A stretch of 12,105 nucleotides of DNA from an uncultured Anaerolineales bacterium. Lineage in GTDB: Bacteria > Chloroflexota > Anaerolineae > Anaerolineales > UBA11657. The notes under the pieces are model-generated. The model searched no databases. It was not told the origin of the DNA and worked only from the letters and a program-made list of their open reading frames with translations. The position numbers were made by a program, and so were the translations under genes. Location of the stretch: NCBI GenBank assembly GCA_913040765.1, contig CAJWIA010000023.1, positions 1-12,105 on the forward strand, read 5' to 3'. Below, piece after piece: positions 1 to 9,852 of this stretch (its first letter is position 1; each line of letters opens with the position of its first letter).

Positions 1-984
1 ATTCAGCGCTAAGTTGACTGCTGTTTCAATACATTTGGCTTCCTGCGCTAGCTTAAGGGAATGACGTAGCAATAGAGCAGTTGAGAGGATCATGCCAATG
101 GGATTAGCAATACCTTTTCCAGCTATATCGGGTGCCGATCCATGTATTGGCTCATATAATCCTGGTCCGCTTTCACCCATTGAAGCAGATGGAAGATTTC
201 CCATAGATCCAGTTAATACAGATGCTTCATCTGTCAGTATATCACCAAACATATTACTGGTTACCAATACGTCGAAATTAGATGGTTTTGTGATTAGGTG
301 CATTGCTGCTGCATCAACCAACAAATGGTTAAAACTAATATTTGGATGATTATCTGCAACTTCAGTTGCTATTTGACGCCATAATCTAGATGATTCAAGA
401 ACGTTTGCTTTGTCCACGGAGGTGACTTTACCTTGCCGGTCTTCAGCCAAACTACATGCTAATCGTACTATTCTCTTTATTTCATAATCCCAGTAGATCA
501 TGGAATCTACGGCATACGTGTTACCGTCTTCATTAACCCTGCGACATTTTGGCTCGCCAAAATATATCCCTCCAGTTAATTCCCGCACGACTAGTATATC
601 TACATCTGCAAGGATCTCATTTTTCAAAGGCGAAGAATCTTGCAGTTTTGGATGTGTGCTTACTGGTCTTAGGTTAGCAAACAAACCCATTTCTTTTCTT
701 AAAGCCAGCAGTCCCTGTTCTGGACGAACCTTAGCGTTTGGATCATCCCATTTAGGACCTCCAACTGCACCCAGCAAAACTGCGTCAGCCTCTAGACAAT
801 CTGCTAGGGTTTCATCCGTAAGGGCGATACCATTTTGATCAATTGAAATACCTCCCATTAAGCGTTCATCTATTTGAAGATTATGATCGAATTGACTGGC
901 CACTTTGCCCAATACTTTTTCGGCAGATGCCATGACTTCAGGACCAATACCATCACCTGGTAGTGTAACAATGCGTGCCTTCAT
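1..984 (-). CDS. leuB: 3-isopropylmalate dehydrogenase (partial, C-terminus beyond left edge)
   Basis: NAD-dependent oxidative decarboxylation of 3-isopropylmalate to 2-oxoisocaproate in leucine synthesis. With cimA next door it would also oxidise 3-methylmalate to 2-oxobutyrate. Reading from ATG at 984 gives 328 codons without a stop; the family is about 355-365 residues, so roughly 30 are missing. Visible motifs: GAVGGPKWD (72-80), substrate arginines R96, R106 and R134 ([11 protein letters not shown]), catalytic Y141 and K192, metal-binding D224, D248 and D252, and the nucleotide segment [12 protein letters not shown] (278-289), where D286 is the position that marks NAD rather than NADP use. 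These match Thermus-type LeuB in order and spacing. The start overlaps the cimA stop as ATGA, with no good Shine-Dalgarno of its own, so translational coupling is likely. Last gene of the operon inside the window; what follows is not visible. Confidence 0.96.
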
Positions 985-2543
985 GTTAATAGCAGCCCAT
1001 ATTCAATACCGTCAATTAATGCTTGCCAGCTCGCTTCGATAATATTGGTGCTTGTTCCTACAGTGCTCCAGCGTTCTCGTTCATTGTGCATATCAATTAG
1101 CACACGAGTGAGTGATGCGGTTCCGTCGCGACCATCTAAAATCCTTACCTTAAAGTCTGACAAATGTATATCATTCAGCTTTGGATAAGTGGGCAAAATA
1201 GCCTTACGCAATGCTATGTTGAGAGCATTTACTGGCCCATTTCCATCACCAGCTGTGTGAACTTCCTTTTTATTGATAAGTATTTTTACTAGTGATTCAG
1301 AGAACATTCCACGTCCCTGACGGTGTTGAACTGTAGCTGAGTAATCTAAAAACTCAAATGGAGGATTGTAGTCAGGTTGACGGCGTTTTAACCGTATTGC
1401 TACAGAAGCTTCTGCTGCCTCAAATGAGAACCCCTGCGACTCTAAATCCTTGATTTCTGAAAGGACCTCAGTCACCGTTTCTCTGTTGCCTAACTGCATT
1501 CCGAATTCTTCTGCTTTAGCAATCAAGTTGCCGTGACCCGATAGCTCTGATACTACAGTACGCATTTCATTCCCCACGAGTTCGGGATTGACATGTTGGT
1601 AACTATGTGAGTTGCGACGCATAGCTGCTACATGTATACCACCCTTATGCGTAAATGCACTGTGCCCTACATAAGACTGATGTTCATCAGGAGAGAGATT
1701 GGCGACCTCAGCCACAAAATGTGCTAAGTCGTACAGATCGCTAAGGTTACCTTCGGGCAGGCATGTTACACCCATTTTTAATTCTAAATCTGGCAAAATA
1801 CTGCACAAATTGGCATTGCCACACCGTTCTCCATAGCCATTAACAGTGCCTTGAATGTGTGTAACACCTTCGCGTACTGCTATAAGTGTATTAGCAACAG
1901 CACATCCAGAATCGTCATGTGTGTGTATGCCTAAAGTAGTATCAATTTGTTTTTTTACATCATGTATCACAGAAGCTATTTGCCATGGCATAGTACCACC
2001 ATTGGTGTCACAAAGTACTATGGTATCGGCACCTCCACTCTGGGCTGCAAGTATTGTTTCCATAGCATAATCTGGGTCAGCGTTAAATCCATCAAAAAAA
2101 TGTTCCGCATCATAAATAACTTCTTTTTTATGATGTTTCAGATGAGCTACACTGTCTTGAATCATGCGTAGATTTTCTTCTTGTGTGGTTTTGATTACAT
2201 CAGTTACGTGTAATGTCCATGATTTACCTACAAGTGTGCATGTAGGAGTATTTGCGAGTATTAAAGCCTGTAGATTGCTATCTTCCTCTGGTTTAGAGTC
2301 TGCACGGCACGTGGATCCAAATGCGCTGATTCGAGCAGTTTTAAGATCTAATTCAGGCATTCGATCAAAGAATTCAACATCTTTGGGGTTAGATCCGGGC
2401 CAGCCTCCTTCAATATAACTTACACCAAGATCGTCAAGACGCTGAGCTATACGAAGTTTGTCATCACAGGACAGTGATATTCCCTCGCGTTGTGTACCAT
2501 CACGTAAGGTCGTATCATAGATTTTTATGTAATTATCTAACAT
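981..2543 (-). CDS. cimA: (R)-citramalate synthase
   Basis: Condenses pyruvate and acetyl-CoA to citramalate, the entry to threonine-independent isoleucine synthesis. 520 residues, normal for the CimA branch of the LeuA-like DRE-TIM family. N-terminal TIM barrel: [12 protein letters not shown] (10-21) with catalytic R14 and metal ligand D15, [11 protein letters not shown] (45-55), GKSWTLHV (106-113), [10 protein letters not shown] (144-153), metal histidines H207 and H209 (HTHDD), and [12 protein letters not shown] (235-246). The [14 protein letters not shown] and [10 protein letters not shown] signatures separate it from isopropylmalate and homocitrate synthases. A C-terminal regulatory (LeuA-dimer type) domain covers about 390-520, with [15 protein letters not shown] (432-446); in this family it binds the feedback inhibitor, usually isoleucine. 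The start overlaps the last 7 bases of leuD, and the stop overlaps the leuB start. Placement among leuCDB fits shared use of those enzymes. The substrate call is strong by motif but rests on family knowledge. Confidence 0.92.
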
Positions 2544-3121
2544 GTTGACTCATAAGCCTCTATTAGTGATTCGTGTGATAGGATGTAACCAAGTTGATCT
2601 ACCCCAGTAAGAAGACAGTTTTTTGCAAAACTGTCTATTGGAAATGTGACAGCAGTGCTTCTAGGTATCGTTAAAGTCTGAGAAGCAAGATTTATGGAAA
2701 GTTCTGAGTCTGGTGATTGTGCGACTAATTCAAACAATGATTGATGAATATCCTTGTTAACAACTATCGGCAAGAGCGCATTTTTTAAAGCATTATTACG
2801 AAAAATGTCGGCGAAAGATGTCGATATCACTGCATTTATACCCCAAGCAGTTAGAGCCCACGGCGCATGCTCTCGGGATGATCCACATCCAAAATTGTCA
2901 CCAGCCAAAATGATTTTTGCATCCTGGTTTTGCTGTTGGTTAAGTACAAAGTCAGGTTTGACGGAACCATCGCTATTGTAACGCCAGTCAGAGAAAAGTG
3001 CTTCTCCCAGACCGTTCTTGTCTGTTACCTTCAGGAATCGAGCTGGAATGATTTGGTCAGTGTCTATATTACGATTAGGTATCACAATGACTTTAGATTT
3101 GAGATGAGTGAATTTGGCCAT
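2537..3121 (-). CDS. leuD: 3-isopropylmalate dehydratase, small subunit
   Basis: Swivelling small subunit of isopropylmalate isomerase; pairs with LeuC to isomerise 2-isopropylmalate to 3-isopropylmalate, and probably citramalate to 3-methylmalate here. 194 residues, the longer bacterial LeuD type (Escherichia-like, about 200) rather than the roughly 165-residue archaeal type; this agrees with the long LeuC beside it. Motifs: IPNRNIDTDQIIPARFLK (14-31), GDNFGCGSSREHAPWAL (74-90), the aconitase-superfamily substrate loop, FADIFRNNALKNALLPI (103-119), and the C-terminal LLTGVDQLGYIL (170-181). Start ATG at 3121 is one base after the leuC stop and is preceded by a GGAG site lying inside the leuC 3' end, so the two subunits are probably made by coupled translation. 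The 3' end overlaps the cimA start by 7 bases. Confidence 0.96.
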   Translation of the reverse strand: MAKFTHLKSKVIVIPNRNIDTDQIIPARFLKVTDKNGLGEALFSDWRYNSDGSVKPDFVLNQQQNQDAKIILAGDNFGCGSSREHAPWALTAWGINAVISTSFADIFRNNALKNALLPIVVNKDIHQSLFELVAQSPDSELSINLASQTLTIPRSTAVTFPIDSFAKNCLLTGVDQLGYILSHESLIEAYESTC

Positions 3122-3122
3122 T

Positions 3123-4532
3123 TTATATCATCTCCCTAACATCTGATATTGCGCCCCTCACTGCTGTTGCAGCTGCTGTGAGAGGAGATGCCAGGAAGGT
3201 GCGTGCACCTTTCCCCTGGCGACCTTCAAAATTCCGGTTGCTAGTACTGACAGCATATTGTCCAGGTTCGACTTGGTCTCCATTCATTGCTATACACATG
3301 GAACAGCCTGCTTCACGCCATTCGGCACCGGCTTCAGTAAACACTTGGTCTAAGCCTTCAGATTCAGCTTGTATTTTCACTGATTGTGAACCAGGTACTA
3401 CTAACATTCTTATGTTTTCTGCAACCCGCCGACCTTCTAGGACTTTGGCTGCTAATCGTAGATCAGAAATACGGCCGTTAGTACAGCTTCCTATGAATAC
3501 AACATCGACAGGATGTCCTAACAGTGGTTGTCCTGGTTGTAATTCCATATAAGTGAGCGAATCCTCCAAGTTATGTCGTTTGTCTGGATCACTATAGTTG
3601 TTCGGATTCGGAATCCGGCCTGTAATTTGAAGTCCCATGCTTGGATTTGTACCAAAAGTTATCATTGGTTCAAGTGACGATGCATCCAGTGTTATAGATT
3701 GGTCATAAATAGCTTCTCCGTCAGTAGAAAGTTTTTTCCACGACTTAATAGCTTTATCCCATTCAATTCCCTTAGGAGAGTGTTCGCGTCCAGCCAGATA
3801 TTCGAAGGTTGTGTCATCAGGGGCAACCATGCCAGCACGAGCTCCACCTTCAATCGACATATTGCATATGGTCATTCTTTCTTCCATTGTAAGGCCGCGG
3901 ATTGCTTCACCGGTGTATTCAAATACATGACCTGTACCACCACCAATACCTATTTGGGCTATCAGTGCTAATATTATGTCTTTTGCAGATACACCTATTC
4001 CCAGTTTGCCTGATAAGTTCACTTGGAATGTTTTAGGTTGGTGTTGGAGTAGGCATTGACTGGCCAGCACATGTTCTACCTCGCTGGTGCCTATTCCAAA
4101 GGCCAGAGCTCCAAATGCACCATGTGTTGACGTGTGGCTATCACCACATACTATGGTCATGCCAGGCTGTGTTCGTCCGAGTTCAGGACCTATAACATGT
4201 ACTATACCCCTCATAGGAGAGTCCATTCCATAAAGTTCTATGTCAAACTCCTCACAGTTTTCAGCGAGTTGTTGTAGTTGTGCAGCTGCTTGAGTGTCTG
4301 CCATAGGGATTGAAAGTGGTGTAGTAGGAATTGAGTGATCCATTGTCGCAAGTGTATGTGTTGGGCGTCGTACTTTCAATCCGCGTTCTCGTAATCCGGT
4401 AAATGCCTGCGGGGATGTGACTTCATGGACCAAGTGCAGGTCGATATATAACACCGCCGGGGACTTTGGTTCTTGTGTCACTATATGTGAGTGCCAAATC
4501 TTTTCAAAAAGTGTAAGTGGATTAGAACTCAT
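3123..4532 (-). CDS. leuC: 3-isopropylmalate dehydratase, large subunit
   Basis: [4Fe-4S] catalytic subunit of isopropylmalate isomerase (aconitase superfamily), working with LeuD. 469 residues, matching the long bacterial LeuC (Escherichia about 466) and not the about 420-residue archaeal-type form. Cluster cysteines are all present: C350 in GSCTNGR, and C410 and C413 in GCSMC. Other family blocks: [14 protein letters not shown] (31-44), MDHSIPT (64-70), [21 protein letters not shown] (128-148), [16 protein letters not shown] (224-239), and [12 protein letters not shown] (429-440). Starts at ATG 4532 with a GGAG site nine bases upstream. It lies 17 bases after leuA and one base before leuD. 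Dual use for leucine and citramalate routes is inferred from cimA in the same operon. Confidence 0.97.
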
Positions 4533-4549: not shown

Positions 4550-6196
4550 TTAGTCGTTAGTAATAGCATCGTTGTTATTGGTATGTAAATCTAATGCTCC
4601 AATTGCCTTGTTTAAGGCATTTACGTAAGCTCGTGCACTGGCAACAAAAATATCTGTACTGGCTCCATGTCCTCCGAAAGATCTATACTGCATTTGCTCT
4701 CTCTGCGGGGATAGGCGTTTGGGAGCTGACACTTTTTCTGAATCTATTTGTATCCGCACAGTAACCTCACCAATCGCATCTATTCCTTCAGTCACTGCAT
4801 TTACGTTATATTCCGTCAGTTCATTCGGCAATTCTATGATGTGGTCTATAGCACTGTAACAAGCGTCTACTGGTCCAGTGCCAATGGATGCATGCTCTAT
4901 CAGCAGTCCGTTAGAGTCAACTATTCGTACTGTTGCTGTAGGTAAACCTAGGGTGCCACACACTACTTGCACATCCTGCAACTTAAATACTTCTATAGGT
5001 TGATTTATTTCATCAGTAATTAACACTTCTATGTCTGCGTCTGTGATCACTTTTTTCTTTTCGGCTACTCTCTTGAAACGGTTAAAAACGTCTTTTAAAT
5101 CTTTATCGCTAAGTTCGTAGCCTAGCTCCTGTAGTCGTACTCGAAGAGCATGGCGTCCAGAATGTTTACCCAAAACTAGTTTGGATTGTGATAACCCTAC
5201 TGTTTCAGGACGCATAATCTCGTAGGTTTCTTCATGTTTGAGCATTCCGTCCTGATGGATGCCAGCTTCATGCGCGAAAGCATTTGCTCCCACTATAGCT
5301 TTGTTGGGTTGCACCACTATTCCAGTGTAATTGCTGACCATGCGACTAGTGCGCACAATTTGAGTGGTGTCTATACCATGTTCAAGTTCAAATATTGACT
5401 TTCTCGTTTGTAAAGTCATAACAACTTCTTCTAGGGAAGTGTTTCCGGCACGTTCGCCAATTCCGTTAATGGTTACTTCTGCCTGTCTTGCACCGGCTCT
5501 AATACCCGCTAGAGTGTTTGCCGTGGCCATACCTAAGTCATTGTGACAATGTACTGAAAGAATTACTTTTTCTATTCCGGGCGTATTAGCAACAATTCCA
5601 GCGATGAGTGCTCCAAACTCATCCGGAGTGGTATATCCCACAGTATCAGGTATATTTAATGTGGTTGCGCCAGATTTTATCGCCTGTTCTAACACTGTGT
5701 AGAGGAAATCCGGTTGGCTACGACCAGCATCCTCTGGGCTAAATTCTACATTATCACACAGTTGTTTGGCGTATGCGACTGCGTGCTTTACTCTATCTAT
5801 CACTTCTTCGGGGTCCATACGCAGTTTGTGTCGCATGTGTATTTCAGAGGTAGCAAGGAAAGTATGAATACGTGGGTGGTCGGCACTTTGTATGGCTTCC
5901 CAAGCAGCATCAATATCCTGTTCTGATGCTCGAGCTAAACCGCATATTGTAGGAGTGTGTTTATATTCTTCCCCTAATTTGGTCAGGGAATCTTCTCGAC
6001 CTATTTCATTAGCTATACCCTGTACTGCAGCTAAATCATCTGGAGATGCAGCTGGGAAACCAGCTTCAATAATGTCAACTCCAAGTCTAGCTAATTGTCT
6101 AGCAACCTCGAGTTTTTCTGAACTGGTGAGAGTTGCACCTGGTGATTGTTCACCATCTCTTAGCGTAGTATCGAAAAAACGAATATACTTTGTCAT
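4550..6196 (-). CDS. leuA: 2-isopropylmalate synthase
   Basis: First committed step of leucine synthesis: 2-oxoisovalerate plus acetyl-CoA to 2-isopropylmalate. 548 residues, slightly longer than the usual 510-525 of bacterial LeuA type 1; the excess is a loop near 66-80 and a hydrophilic Asn/Asp-rich tail (539-548). Barrel motifs: [16 protein letters not shown] (8-23) with catalytic R13 and metal ligand D14, EAGFPAASP (44-52), [12 protein letters not shown] (149-160), metal histidines H216 and H218 in HCHNDLG, and [14 protein letters not shown] (244-257). The linker region has HEAGIHQDG (309-317). The C-terminal regulatory domain (about 400-535) keeps the [20 protein letters not shown] segment (509-528), so leucine feedback inhibition is expected. 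Sits 22 bases after ilvC and 17 before leuC. The only Shine-Dalgarno candidate is a weak GAGG about 13 bases upstream. Clearly distinct from the cimA paralogue in the same operon. Confidence 0.96.
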
Positions 6197-6218: not shown

Positions 6219-7277
<1,059 letters not shown>

Positions 7278-7296: not shown

Positions 7297-7830
7297 TTAA
7301 TCTTGCTTGGTTTGTATAGTTTCAAATAGTGAGGGATCAGAATAATCCTGGTCATCCCCTGGTTGTATTGCTATCACTCCAGTACGCTGTACTTCAACTA
7401 TTCTGAATGGCTCTAGCATTTGTAGTAAACGCGTAACTTCTTCTGCTGTACCACTAATTTCAAGCACAAGAGTCTGAGATGCAGTATCTACAATATTAGC
7501 GTGAAATACATCCGCTATTTGTACAATTTCACTTCGAGTTTTACTATCAGCTTTTACTTTGATAAGGGCTAGTTCTCGAGCTACTGGAGATTTATGTGTT
7601 AAATCATCAACTCGTAGAACATTGACTAGTTTGTACAGGTTAGCTTCAATGCGTCTAGCTACGTTTTCGTCTTCAGCATCTACCATTATGGTCATTCGAG
7701 AAATTCCAGGCCTGTTAGTATGACCTACGGCTAAAGATTCAATATTAAAACCGCGTCGACGGAATAATGATGCTACTCTATTTAGAACACCAGGTTTATC
7801 TTCGACGTAGGCAATAATTGTGTGTATCAT
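7297..7830 (-). CDS. ilvN: acetolactate synthase, small regulatory subunit
   Basis: Regulatory partner of IlvB; activates the catalytic subunit and confers valine feedback inhibition. 177 residues, typical of the IlvH/IlvN family. An N-terminal ACT domain (about 3-75) holds DKPGVLNRVASLFRRRGFNIESL (11-33 region) and SRMTIMV (44-50). G14 and N29 correspond in position to residues whose substitution makes Escherichia IlvH valine-resistant, so the valine site looks intact. A second, C-terminal domain (about 85-160) ends in VQRTGVIAIQPG (147-158), followed by a short acidic tail. ATG 7830 lies 19 bases after the ilvB stop, with a purine-rich GGAGTAGAG stretch upstream. Gene order ilvB-ilvN-ilvC is the common one. 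Confidence 0.96.
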   Translation of the reverse strand: MIHTIIAYVEDKPGVLNRVASLFRRRGFNIESLAVGHTNRPGISRMTIMVDAEDENVARRIEANLYKLVNVLRVDDLTHKSPVARELALIKVKADSKTRSEIVQIADVFHANIVDTASQTLVLEISGTAEEVTRLLQMLEPFRIVEVQRTGVIAIQPGDDQDYSDPSLFETIQTKQD

Positions 7831-7849: not shown

Positions 7850-9550
7850 CTACCATTCGATCTCTGGTTTTGGTCTTCTTATCATATCATCCAAGTCTGC
7901 TCCAGTAGCTACCATTGGATATACTGAATCTTCTTTTTCAACTTCGAAGTCTATTACTACTACCCCTGGTGTACTTTGTGCTTTTCGGACAGCTGTTTCC
8001 ACGTCTTCGCGTTTTGATACTCGAATACCAGTGGCACGGTGAGCCTCTGCTAGTTTCACAAAGTCAGGACTAAGCATTGGAGTAGCAGAATAACGACCAT
8101 CATAAAAAAACTCTTGCCATTGTCGGACCATCCCCAAATATCCATTGTTAATTATAGCTACATTTAGGTCAATATTTTCCTGAGCTAGAGTAGTGAGTTC
8201 TGCTGCGGTCATCTGAAATCCGCCATCTCCGCAGATGACCCATACTTCTTTCTCGGGACAAGACAACTTTGCTCCCATAGCTGCTGGTAGTGCAAATCCC
8301 ATTGTTCCTAGACCGCCGGAAGTAATCAAAGATCGAGGGGTATCATGATGATAATATTGAGTTTCCCACATCTGATGTTGTCCGACATCAGTTACGACTA
8401 ATGCGTCTCCGTTTGTTAGACGCCAGATATCATGAATAACATGAGCAGCATAAAGATGTCCCATATCAGGCATGTGCTTGATATCACGCACAGCTGAGTC
8501 TCCCCTATGTGATTCAATTTTACTTAGCCACTCTTTACGGTTGCCCTGATCAGTATGTGACGTGAGTTTTGCTAGCATTTCTCGTAAATCACCTACAATT
8601 GCAACATCGACTTTAACATTCTTATCTATCTCGGTAGGGTCGATTTCTATATGGATTTTCTTAGCATGTTTAGCATAATTAGCCAAATTGCCAGTGACAC
8701 GATCATCAAATCGCATTCCAAATGCTAGAAGTAGATCAGATTCTTGTATAGCAGTGTTTACCCATGCTTCTCCATGCATACCCATCATACCCAGATTAAG
8801 TGGATGAGATGCTGGAAATCCGCCAAGACCCAACAATGTCATAGACAGTGGGATATTGGTGCGTTCCACAAATTTCAGAAGTTCTGCCATGGCGCCCGAT
8901 GCAATAACGCCCTGTCCGGCTAAAATGATAGGGCGTTCAGCGTTATTTATTAAATCGGCAGCTTCTTGAAAAGTTCGTTGGTCCGCACTCATATCAGGAC
9001 GATAACCCGGCAGTTTGACAGGTTTGTCGATCCATTGGAATTCTATTTTTTCATTTTGCACATCTTTTGCAATGTCAACTAGAACAGGACCTTGTCTGCC
9101 TGAACGGGCTATGTAAAATGCTTCACGCAGCGTGTCTGCAAGTTCTGCTATTTCGGTTACTAGATAGTTGTGCTTAGTGATTGGGAGTGTTACTCCTGTT
9201 ACATCAGTTTCTTGAAATGCATCAGTACCGATGACTTGTGAAGGCACTTGTCCAGTAATACAAACTATAGGTGAAGAGTCGAGCATAGCTGTGGCAATCC
9301 CTGTCACTAGGTTAGTTGCTCCAGGTCCTGAAGTGGCCATGGCAACTCCCACCTCGCCTGAAGCTCTTGCATAACCATCTGCTGCATGGGCAGCGCCTTG
9401 TTCATGTCTGGTGAGGACATGATGAATATTGTAGTCCAGCATGGCATCATAAATTGGCATTATGGCACCACCAGGATAGCCAAAGATGAGTTCAACACCT
9501 TCCTTCACTAAAACTTCCATAGTGATTTGTGCTCCGCTCAAAATAGGCAT
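7850..9550 (-). CDS. ilvB: acetolactate synthase, large catalytic subunit
   Basis: Thiamine-diphosphate enzyme making 2-acetolactate from two pyruvates, or 2-aceto-2-hydroxybutyrate from pyruvate plus 2-oxobutyrate. I start it at ATG 9550 (566 residues): AAGGAG at 9559-9564 lies eight bases upstream, while the in-frame TTG at 9556 would be only two bases from that site. Three-domain ThDP fold: FGYPGGAIMPIYD (23-35), catalytic glutamate E50 in TRHEQGAAHAADGYARA, SGPGATN (74-80), a central FAD-binding domain with GMRFDDRV (278-285), and the ThDP motif GDGGFQMTAAEL to INN (441 to 469). W478 is the residue at the herbicide-contact site of plant and yeast enzymes. GFPASHPLNLGMMGMHGEAW (244-263) resembles Chloroflexus-group homologues. 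First structural gene of the operon, placed directly behind the leader attenuator. Confidence 0.97.
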   Translation of the reverse strand: MPILSGAQITMEVLVKEGVELIFGYPGGAIMPIYDAMLDYNIHHVLTRHEQGAAHAADGYARASGEVGVAMATSGPGATNLVTGIATAMLDSSPIVCITGQVPSQVIGTDAFQETDVTGVTLPITKHNYLVTEIAELADTLREAFYIARSGRQGPVLVDIAKDVQNEKIEFQWIDKPVKLPGYRPDMSADQRTFQEAADLINNAERPIILAGQGVIASGAMAELLKFVERTNIPLSMTLLGLGGFPASHPLNLGMMGMHGEAWVNTAIQESDLLLAFGMRFDDRVTGNLANYAKHAKKIHIEIDPTEIDKNVKVDVAIVGDLREMLAKLTSHTDQGNRKEWLSKIESHRGDSAVRDIKHMPDMGHLYAAHVIHDIWRLTNGDALVVTDVGQHQMWETQYYHHDTPRSLITSGGLGTMGFALPAAMGAKLSCPEKEVWVICGDGGFQMTAAELTTLAQENIDLNVAIINNGYLGMVRQWQEFFYDGRYSATPMLSPDFVKLAEAHRATGIRVSKREDVETAVRKAQSTPGVVVIDFEVEKEDSVYPMVATGADLDDMIRRPKPEIEW

Positions 9551-9558
9551 CTGCAACT

Positions 9559-9633: not shown

Positions 9634-9664
9634 AAAAAAAGCCGCTCCTTTGTGTGGGGCGGCT
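9634..9664 (-). terminator. intrinsic terminator of the ilv leader (attenuator)
   Basis: On the minus strand AGCCGC pairs with GCGGCT (six contiguous pairs), continued inward after a C/A mismatch by CC with GG, around a loop of about seven bases. It is followed directly by seven T (9634-9640). It lies about 29 bases after the leader-ORF stop and 84 bases before ilvB, so it would end transcription before the structural genes unless prevented. On the plus strand the stem is followed by no T tract, so it acts only in the ilv direction. Confidence 0.88.
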
Positions 9665-9728
9665 CGTATGTTTCTCTTCTTCAGCTTGGATACTAGTGTT
9701 TGTTTATCCTAGCTGGGGCCATCCCACA
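9653..9728 (-). promoter_or_regulatory. predicted antiterminator structure of the ilv leader
   Basis: The minus-strand segment TGTGGGATGGC (9718-9728), inside leader codons 24-27, can pair with GCCGCCCCACA (9653-9663), which contains the 5' arm of the terminator. Ten of eleven positions pair (one G-U, one A/C mismatch). Between the arms, CAGCTAGGATA (9705-9715) and TATCCAAGCTG (9682-9692) form a ten-pair hairpin with one A/A mismatch, whose loop holds the leader stop codon. That hairpin would bring the long-range arms together. Pairing with the terminator arm and the terminator hairpin exclude each other. Predicted by eye; no energies computed. Confidence 0.65.
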
Positions 9729-9797
9729 TGAGTCAGACTCCTCTACAATAACAAGGAGTACAAACAATAACGATAGCACCAGCAATAAGAAATACAT
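9693..9797 (-). CDS. ilv operon leader peptide, Leu/Val-rich
   Basis: A 34-codon ORF from ATG 9797 to TAG 9693-9695. The N-terminal 18 residues, MYFLLLVLSLLFVLLVIV, contain eight Leu, four Val and one Ile. The rest (EESDSCG, then MAPARINKH) is ordinary. It is too short to be found by length, but its place between a promoter and a T-tract terminator ahead of ilvB is that of an attenuation leader: a ribosome starved for charged Leu or Val tRNA would stall in codons 4-18. AGGA at 9811-9814 is 12 bases from the ATG; an in-frame TTG three codons further up is better spaced and could be the real start. The eight Leu codons include all six synonymous triplets. The alternative, a small single-span membrane protein, is possible from the hydrophobic run, but the surrounding RNA elements favour a cis-acting leader. 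Confidence 0.8.
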   Translation of the reverse strand: MYFLLLVLSLLFVLLVIVEESDSCGMAPARINKH

Positions 9798-9809
9798 TAT
9801 CAACAAATA

Positions 9810-9819
9810 TCCTATAGGA
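9810..9819. promoter_or_regulatory. palindrome at the predicted ilv transcription start
   Basis: TCCTATAGGA is a perfect 10-base palindrome spanning the inferred +1 of the ilv promoter. Position suits a repressor site, but its length gives weak evidence. Its half-site CCTAT/ATAGG recurs in the glnA leader palindrome at 11390-11404. Confidence 0.3.
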
Positions 9820-9823
9820 ATCT

Positions 9824-9852
9824 AGTCTACTTCAAGCTCAGTGTAATGTCAA
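9824..9852 (-). promoter_or_regulatory. predicted sigma70-type promoter of the ilv-leu operon
   Basis: Consensus -35 TTGACA (9847-9852), 17-base spacer, then -10 TAGACT (9824-9829; four of six consensus positions). Transcription would begin near 9817, about 20 bases before the leader start codon. It lies about 40 bases after the glnA stop. Confidence 0.65.

Follow-up and report, generated by a model that had tools for sequence, protein, structure and literature searches.

Introduction

The attenuators of the enteric ilv, leu, thr and trp operons consist of a leader open reading frame (ORF) with control codons, alternating 1:2, 2:3 and 3:4 helices, and an intrinsic terminator. Other ilv and leu operons are controlled by T-boxes, which are tRNA-binding RNAs. 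A 2010 survey states that its own Firmicutes case was preceded by no such attenuator shown outside the Proteobacteria and Actinobacteria (PMC2965389); the branched-chain amino acid (BCAA) attenuators of Firmicutes came later (PMC5794164). A gammaproteobacterial origin of amino acid attenuators, with very few transfers, was suggested as a possibility by a 2013 survey of Rfam motifs that included five Chloroflexi genomes (PMC3766115).

Several described systems resemble the element reported here. In Corynebacterium, a BCAA-rich upstream ORF (uORF) precedes ilvBNC and is accompanied by anti-antiterminator, antiterminator and terminator hairpins (PMC11857589, PMC10272879), and the description of ilvB-II places the start codon near the transcript start, as here. 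By the same description, however, the ilvB-II start-to-stop distance is usually 45–51 nt, compared to about 90–126 nt for the leaders of the order studied here, which belong to another phylum. The ilvB-OMG and Leptospira ilvB leaders have been proposed as BCAA-rich uORF attenuators before ilvB outside the classical groups, but they are described as also being Thr-rich, and it is by these descriptions that the present family is set apart from them (PMC10272879). Because ilvB-OMG is placed in unnamed "various bacterial phyla", it may overlap with the Chloroflexota family (PMC10272879). In Staphylococcus aureus, a leucine-rich leader peptide controls BCAA synthesis outside the Proteobacteria and Actinobacteria, although this ilv-leu attenuator belongs to the Firmicutes and the likeness is drawn from its description (PMC5794164). 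Within Chloroflexota, RNA control by tRNA charging has been described for the ileS, trpE and trpB T-boxes of Dehalococcoides (PMC2494555), which differ from the present element in that the window described below has no Rfam match.

The DNA analyzed here (the window) is a stretch of 12,105 nt from an uncultured Anaerolineales bacterium. As in the enteric ilv, leu, thr and trp attenuators, a leader ORF with control codons, alternating helices and a terminator precede a biosynthetic operon. The element differs from the enteric attenuators in that its antiterminator strand is part of the ORF and follows closely on the control codons, that a conserved stop-codon hairpin is nested in the antiterminator, that tandem copies occur in some genomes, and that it has no Rfam match. 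An earlier sequence-only reading had likened the architecture to enteric and corynebacterial attenuators, and this likeness is supported by the presence of the leader, the terminator and a covarying antiterminator. From sequence comparison and folding models, we consider it very probable that the window element is a ribosome-mediated transcription attenuator that senses charged Leu, Val and Ile tRNAs. The mechanism is classical; what is new is a family unlisted in Rfam, with its in-ORF antiterminator strand, nested stop hairpin, tandem copies and transport branch. The sequence-only reading knew of no described case in Chloroflexota, and we likewise found no description of such an attenuator there among the open-licence papers that the searches listed; the survey of Lopatovskaya (2010) is outside that scope, and priority is uncertain.

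Organization of the leader region and the putative operon

The element is followed on the minus strand by ilvB-ilvN-ilvC-leuA-leuC-leuD-cimA, each of which scores above the curated cutoff of one or more fitting NCBIfam models, and upstream of it lie glnA and the end of a gene for glutamate synthase. The features are as follows.

9847..9852, minus strand: -35 box TTGACA, conserved in relatives
9824..9829, minus strand: -10 box TAGACT, with a 17-nt spacer to the -35 box
9693..9797, minus strand: leader ORF, 34 codons plus stop, from ATG 9797 to TAG 9693, with Leu/Val/Ile-rich control codons 3–18
9772..9780, minus strand: R1, GGTGCTATC, early control codons, predicted in MFE folds to pair with the antiterminator 5′ strand (pre-emptive 1:2 helix)
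9755..9759, minus strand: P0 hairpin 5′ arm, ACTCC, from folding and permutation
9737..9741, minus strand: P0 hairpin 3′ arm, GGAGT, from folding
9718..9728, minus strand: antiterminator 5′ strand (R2), TGTGGGATGGC, within the ORF, from covariation
9705..9715, minus strand: P1 stop-codon hairpin 5′ arm, from folding and permutation
9682..9692, minus strand: P1 stop-codon hairpin 3′ arm, from folding
9653..9663, minus strand: antiterminator 3′ strand, GCCGCCCCACA, which is the terminator 5′ arm and loop, from covariation
9639..9665, minus strand: GC stem-loop of the predicted intrinsic terminator
9634..9640, minus strand: T7 tract
7850..9550, minus strand: ilvB, start taken as ATG 9550, preceded by AAGGAGAG; TTG at 9556
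7297..7830, minus strand: ilvN
6219..7232, minus strand: ilvC
4550..6196, minus strand: leuA
3123..4532, minus strand: leuC
2537..3121, minus strand: leuD
981..2543, minus strand: cimA, citramalate synthase (isoleucine via pyruvate)

The position of cimA (981–2543) as the last gene of the row means that the same switch would also govern the threonine-independent route to isoleucine. The sequence-only reading had guessed a Chloroflexota host; the organism is an Anaerolineales bacterium, and the nearest ilvB genes among named records are also those of Anaerolineales MAGs (Chloroflexota). The source genome, which is 77% complete, contains a single copy of the element.

The leader peptide, MYFLLLVLSLLFVLLVIVEESDSCGMAPARINKH, has Leu, Val or Ile at 13 of its first 18 residues, and translation could also start at an in-frame TTG (9806). 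Dinucleotide shuffling of the window produced an ORF of 20–60 codons with at least 13 Leu/Val/Ile among its first 18 residues in 2 of 300 cases, and shuffling of the glnA-ilvB gap in none of 2000; a chance ORF was rejected on these figures. The real window contains two ORFs of this kind, the leader and a 22-codon ORF elsewhere. A consensus scanner predicted four promoters in the region, which is not above the number in shuffled sequences (mean 2.7, sd 1.8). The same scanner reported a terminator here on the plus strand only, probably because the minus-strand stem contains an internal A.C mismatch that is a G.T pair on the plus strand. These doubts about the promoter and terminator are settled by the recurrence of the promoter, leader, hairpins and terminator in relatives: all four were recognizable in each of the six loci of genera g1 and g3 with sufficient upstream DNA (window included), and a TTGAC-type promoter was found upstream of 62 of 85 related leaders, compared to 1.4 expected by shuffling.

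The fold of positions 9720–9630, which comprises the stop hairpin and the terminator, had an energy of -26.2 kcal/mol (z -5.2), and none of 200 shuffles was as good. P1 (CAGCTaGGATA/TATCCaAGCTG) holds the stop codon in its loop. In the antiterminator, 10 of 11 positions of 9728–9718 pair with 9663–9653, and this helix and the terminator are predicted to be mutually exclusive. The antiterminator strand begins 15 nt past the last control codon (Val18), or about half of the length of RNA that a ribosome covers. P1 was considered as a candidate antiterminator and rejected; it is conserved and nested within the actual antiterminator (9718–9728 with 9653–9663), with which it is compatible. The sigma70-like promoter, the 34-codon ORF, the hairpin over its stop codon and the GC stem with T7 before ilvB were all found where the sequence-only reading had placed them, but that reading had missed the antiterminator and the two helices involving the control codons.

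Covariation of the predicted helices

The helices were evaluated in 42 representatives chosen by peptide similarity, and not independent in descent, from 85 related elements (described below). The two halves of the antiterminator change together, as in the pairs TGTGGGATGGC/GCCGCCCCACA, GGTTAGGATGGC/GCCGCCCTAACC and GTTTGAGGCGGC/GCCGCCTCAAAC. When terminators were permuted among the 42 representatives, the native antiterminator energies summed to -839.5 kcal/mol, compared to -676.6 (sd 15.7) for permuted terminators, and none of 5000 permutations was as good. The loop part of the antiterminator alone gave -444.2 compared to -343.4, again with 0 of 5000 as good; because the loop nucleotides are outside the terminator stem, a conserved terminator alone cannot explain this covariation.

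Permutation gave z -8.7 for P1 in both of two runs (0/5000 in the first) and z -6.3 (0/5000) for P0, with -6.1 in a repeat; P0 is ACTCC/GGAGT in the window and GTCCTT/AAGGAC or GCTTCTC/GAGAAGC elsewhere. The R1:R2 helix had the weakest covariation of the four, at z -3.8 (0/5000), and at z -3.6 (5/5000) when repeated on the 39 usable representatives. Fourteen control segment pairs in the 39 representatives ranged from z -2.7 to +1.7, the lowest value (9/2000) being that of the pair P0a:AT5, which comes near R1:R2 in strength and may overlap R1.

Synonymous codons drawn from the leaders themselves were also resampled in the 42 representatives. The mean z was -1.8 for AT, -1.9 for AAT, -2.1 for P0 and -1.3 for the AT loop part, and the numbers of representatives below 5% were 22, 24, 26 and only 8, respectively. 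L099, a near twin of the window, passed none of these tests (z -0.5 to -0.8). When each of the 85 elements was given swapped partners, on average 17% of the swaps paired as well as the native partner, with fewer than 10% doing so in 31 of 85; this separation is modest because relatives share terminators. What sequence comparison shows is the covarying antiterminator, P0, P1 and R1:R2 helices, together with the leader, the terminator and the gene context.

Several covarying helices would also suit a leader that senses a protein or metabolite (a riboswitch, a T-box or the target of an RNA-binding regulator), in which the ORF would be incidental or would only couple translation, and the T-boxes of other ilv and leu operons count in favor of this reading. 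So does the ppGpp riboswitch that is described as controlling ilvB in some bacteria (PMC10272879). However, no Rfam family matched the window at gathering threshold, in keeping with the absence of a T-box claimed by the sequence-only reading, and a search of six representatives at E ≤ 1 returned nothing relevant, the sole matches being Atu_Ti1 and L10_leader, far below their thresholds. The T-box and ppGpp riboswitch families are part of the Rfam library, and a T-box or riboswitch was rejected on these results. Furthermore, the conserved feature is a run of Leu/Val/Ile codons followed by an in-frame antiterminator strand. We therefore regard a sensing leader of this type as extremely unlikely.

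Predicted effect of a ribosome on the leader

In the folding model, RNA ahead of the ribosome was folded with the transcript ending just before the terminator 3′ arm, and pairing across the ribosome was forbidden. For the window, the predicted probability of the antiterminator was 0.03 without a ribosome. Placing the A site on codon 1 gave 0.46 and on codon 2 gave 0.39; the probability was 0.87–0.88 on codons 3–20, 0.63 on codon 21, 0.30 on codon 22, and zero from codon 23 onward. Over the 42 representatives, the modeled mean was 0.80 with the A site on Leu/Val/Ile codons (at least 0.5 in 41 of 42), 0.36 without a ribosome, and 0.00 with a late ribosome. The OFF state with a late ribosome is in part a consequence of the model itself, because pairing across the ribosome was forbidden. 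The predicted ON interval of ribosome positions is robust, whereas the predicted OFF state without translation is valid for the window but not in general. The pre-emptive helix is the weakest part of the model, because there was little antiterminator without translation (below 0.5) in only 25 of the 42 representatives.

These results are consistent with a model in which transcription would start about 20 nt upstream of the leader ATG. When amino acids are plentiful, the ribosome would pass the Leu/Val/Ile codons onto 9728–9718, or would release, with R1 and P0 re-pairing over that strand; the GC hairpin would then form and RNA polymerase would stop at the T7 tract. A ribosome parked on the stop codon would not itself cover 9728–9718. 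In a shortage, the ribosome would stall on codons 3–18, covering R1 and part of P0 and leaving 9728–9718 free to pair, around the stop-codon hairpin, with the terminator 5′ arm and loop (9663–9653). The terminator would thus be blocked, and ilvBNC-leuACD-cimA would be transcribed. In this model, it is the transcription start, the single operon, leader translation, stalling, termination and the direction of control that we infer.

The same leader could instead act through Rho-dependent termination or through translation of ilvB, with the position of the ribosome having no effect on an intrinsic terminator. A precedent is provided by the similar-looking leaders of Streptomyces ilvB and leuA, which are reported as non-classical in mutational tests (PMC1262725). 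In the present family, however, the terminator hairpin and the T-rich tract are conserved, and it is the 5′ arm and loop of this hairpin that the antiterminator captures. In addition, the terminator ends 83 nt upstream of the ilvB ATG (9550), which has its own AAGGAG. A mode of action by Rho or by ilvB translation is consequently judged exceedingly improbable, and control of the intrinsic terminator by the ribosome is the reading that we retain.

Distribution in Chloroflexota

A first covariance model, built from the six sequences of genera g1 and g3, found the element in 10 of 10 genomes of the taxonomic family. In the order, it matched 138 of 400 genomes at E ≤ 0.5, a permissive threshold under which some of the matches are false. 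A second model, built on 79 matches, was applied at E ≤ 0.01; it matched 117 of the 298 class genomes, 16 of which belong to the same order, and 47 of 400 genomes of the phylum, namely 26 of the same order, 11 of the same class and 10 of other classes. In the order, 90 loci were examined among the matches listed (30 automatically, 60 fetched), leaving out matches below about E 0.02 from genera g14 and g40 and most weaker ones. It was found that 79 of these 90 loci had both a Leu/Val/Ile-rich leader and BCAA genes, which is the telling figure because gene context, unlike structure and sequence, plays no part in the models. The other 11, which by inspection had no leader or no BCAA gene, were dropped (L151, L164, L165, L171, L172, L177, L181, L183, L185, L186 and L188), the best scoring being L151 at E 2.3e-4. 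The 79 loci yielded 88 model matches, and removal of three on the opposite strand left the 85 elements used here; figures on the 85 therefore describe a selected set.

Among the class and phylum matches listed, 69 were inspected, some of which belong to the same order. A BCAA reference gene was present within the examined stretch in 66 of the 69 (at 478–1148 nt in four) and was not found within it in L205, L235 and L259. At least 8 Leu/Val/Ile in 12 residues were found in 67 of the 69, and the two exceptions were livK leaders. Six of the 10 matching genomes of other Chloroflexota classes were inspected, and all six had a Leu/Val/Ile leader and a downstream BCAA gene, which in L270 is about 1 kb away, behind another ORF. 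In genus g142 (L205 and L235), the element with its Leu/Val/Ile leader precedes a protein of 137–138 aa that has no NCBIfam match.

The sequence-only reading had proposed looking in relatives for a conserved Leu/Val-rich ORF with a covarying terminator, and both were found (79 of 90 order loci; 0 of 5000 permutations). The element is not a one-off: members of its family occur throughout the class, and other Chloroflexota classes also gave matches.

All 85 order elements had, by inspection, a Leu/Val/Ile-rich leader containing the antiterminator strand, which ends at codon 24–34 (usually 27–31). In L241, L249 and L253, which are wider matches, the ORF seems by eye to stop before this strand, so that the location inside the ORF is characteristic of the order. 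The leader peptides diverge widely, but a VRMATVRVK-like tail is kept within families. A terminator hairpin was predicted in 85 of 85 elements, and the predicted antiterminator ranged from -12.5 to -28.1 kcal/mol, with a contiguous block of 2–15 pairs (median 11) and 52 distinct helices. The first downstream reference gene was ilvD in 70 elements, ilvB in 9, the gene of a livK-like substrate-binding protein in 3, and in 3 a CBS-like gene followed by ilvB. The latter are the genus g2 loci L109, L112 and L113, in which the gene between the element and ilvB appears by eye to be CBS-domain-like and would fall under BCAA attenuation. In some Anaerolineae-type loci no leader was seen directly before ilvB, the probable reason being that ilvD, whose end was read by eye, stands before ilvB.

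Tandem elements and transport operons

Six order loci (L114, L153, L154, L159, L160 and L174) contained two matches on the same strand, each copy with its own leader and its own terminator hairpin, and the class locus L264 looks like a tandem as well. In L154, the order is one promoter, leader 1, terminator 1, AAAGGAA, leader 2, terminator 2 and ilvD, and both leaders are Leu/Val/Ile-rich. Because leader 2 starts about 20 nt past terminator 1, any promoter specific to it would need to be located inside element 1. The Salmonella mgtCBR leader mRNA also contains two leader ORFs, but these are described as sensing different signals, proline and ATP, whereas both tandem leaders here are Leu/Val/Ile-rich and have their own terminators (PMC3641672). 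In L232 and L260, from two genomes of the class, the upstream one of two matches is a GC hairpin without a T-tract and was not counted as a tandem terminator; judging from the sequences, these copies are possibly decayed first attenuators of a tandem.

The leaders of BCAA-type ABC transporters (L124, L163, L170, L201 and L225) mix Ile, Leu, Val and Met with Trp, Tyr and Phe, as if matching a broad hydrophobic range of substrates. In L163, livK and the adjoining livH were best NCBIfam matches below the curated cutoffs.

Matches outside Chloroflexota

Loci outside Chloroflexota led to 43 genomes, labelled mainly as Acidobacteria, Myxococcales or Deltaproteobacteria, and Verrucomicrobia. Of these, 7 matched at E ≤ 0.5 and 4 at E ≤ 0.01, and 8 of the 12 matches were inspected. 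The four genomes at E ≤ 0.01 are labelled as Opitutia or Verrucomicrobia, and each has by eye a Leu/Val/Ile leader before an ilvD-like ORF. One Acidobacteriaceae match looks false.

An evenly balanced proposal, for which we see as much chance of being right as of being wrong, is that an undescribed family of BCAA attenuators spans Chloroflexota and has reached, or shares an origin with, Opitutia (Verrucomicrobiota). Such a family would control ilvD or ilvB operons and liv operons, the latter through leaders in which Trp, Tyr, Phe and Met accompany Leu, Ile and Val, as though the full range of substrates were being sensed. In several lineages, serial pairs for the same signal behind one promoter would work as two successive gates, making the response steeper. 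The breadth of such a family speaks for convergence or for an older origin. If the proposal is true, leader-peptide attenuation would be old or repeatedly invented, well beyond the Proteobacteria, Actinobacteria and Firmicutes, and a large phylum known mainly from MAGs would have a conserved and testable mode of BCAA control. The covariance model would be usable for annotation, the leader codons would be a possible readout of transporter specificity, and the family would supply natural tandem attenuators for the same signal.

Three weaker Opitutia matches (L276, L277 and L279; E 0.04–0.07) had the same antiterminator and terminator layout with Phe/Tyr-rich leaders (by script in L277 and by eye in L276 and L279) and similar downstream genes. 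In L277, the best matches of the downstream gene were DAHP synthase models, below the curated cutoffs. The presence of Phe/Tyr-rich leaders before a DAHP synthase-like gene indicates that leader composition follows the regulated genes. This bears on the reading that the ORF encodes a functional small hydrophobic membrane peptide, its Leu/Val/Ile run being a transmembrane helix, with an ordinary terminator and partial read-through to ilvB. Peptides rich in Leu, Val and Ile do resemble transmembrane segments, and the VRMATVRVK-like tail is conserved within families. However, besides the Opitutia leaders, the codons of that tail form the antiterminator strand, whose sequence covaries with that of the terminator loop, the peptides otherwise diverge widely, and BCAA genes lie downstream of the element in 79 of the 90 order loci that the structure model found. 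A functional membrane peptide is thus very unlikely, and we favor attenuation by a ribosome that reads the control codons.

Another Leu/Val/Ile-rich leader was observed upstream of ilvB in L026, L028, L029, L031 and L038, and in the divergent L061, L079 and L035, which are mostly Myxococcales or Deltaproteobacteria. This leader contains VVVVVGLIISLLLV followed by GCGGGGACCAGAA, which is able to pair with TTTCTGGCCCTCGC at a downstream terminator. From these sequences, it is apparently a separate BCAA attenuator.
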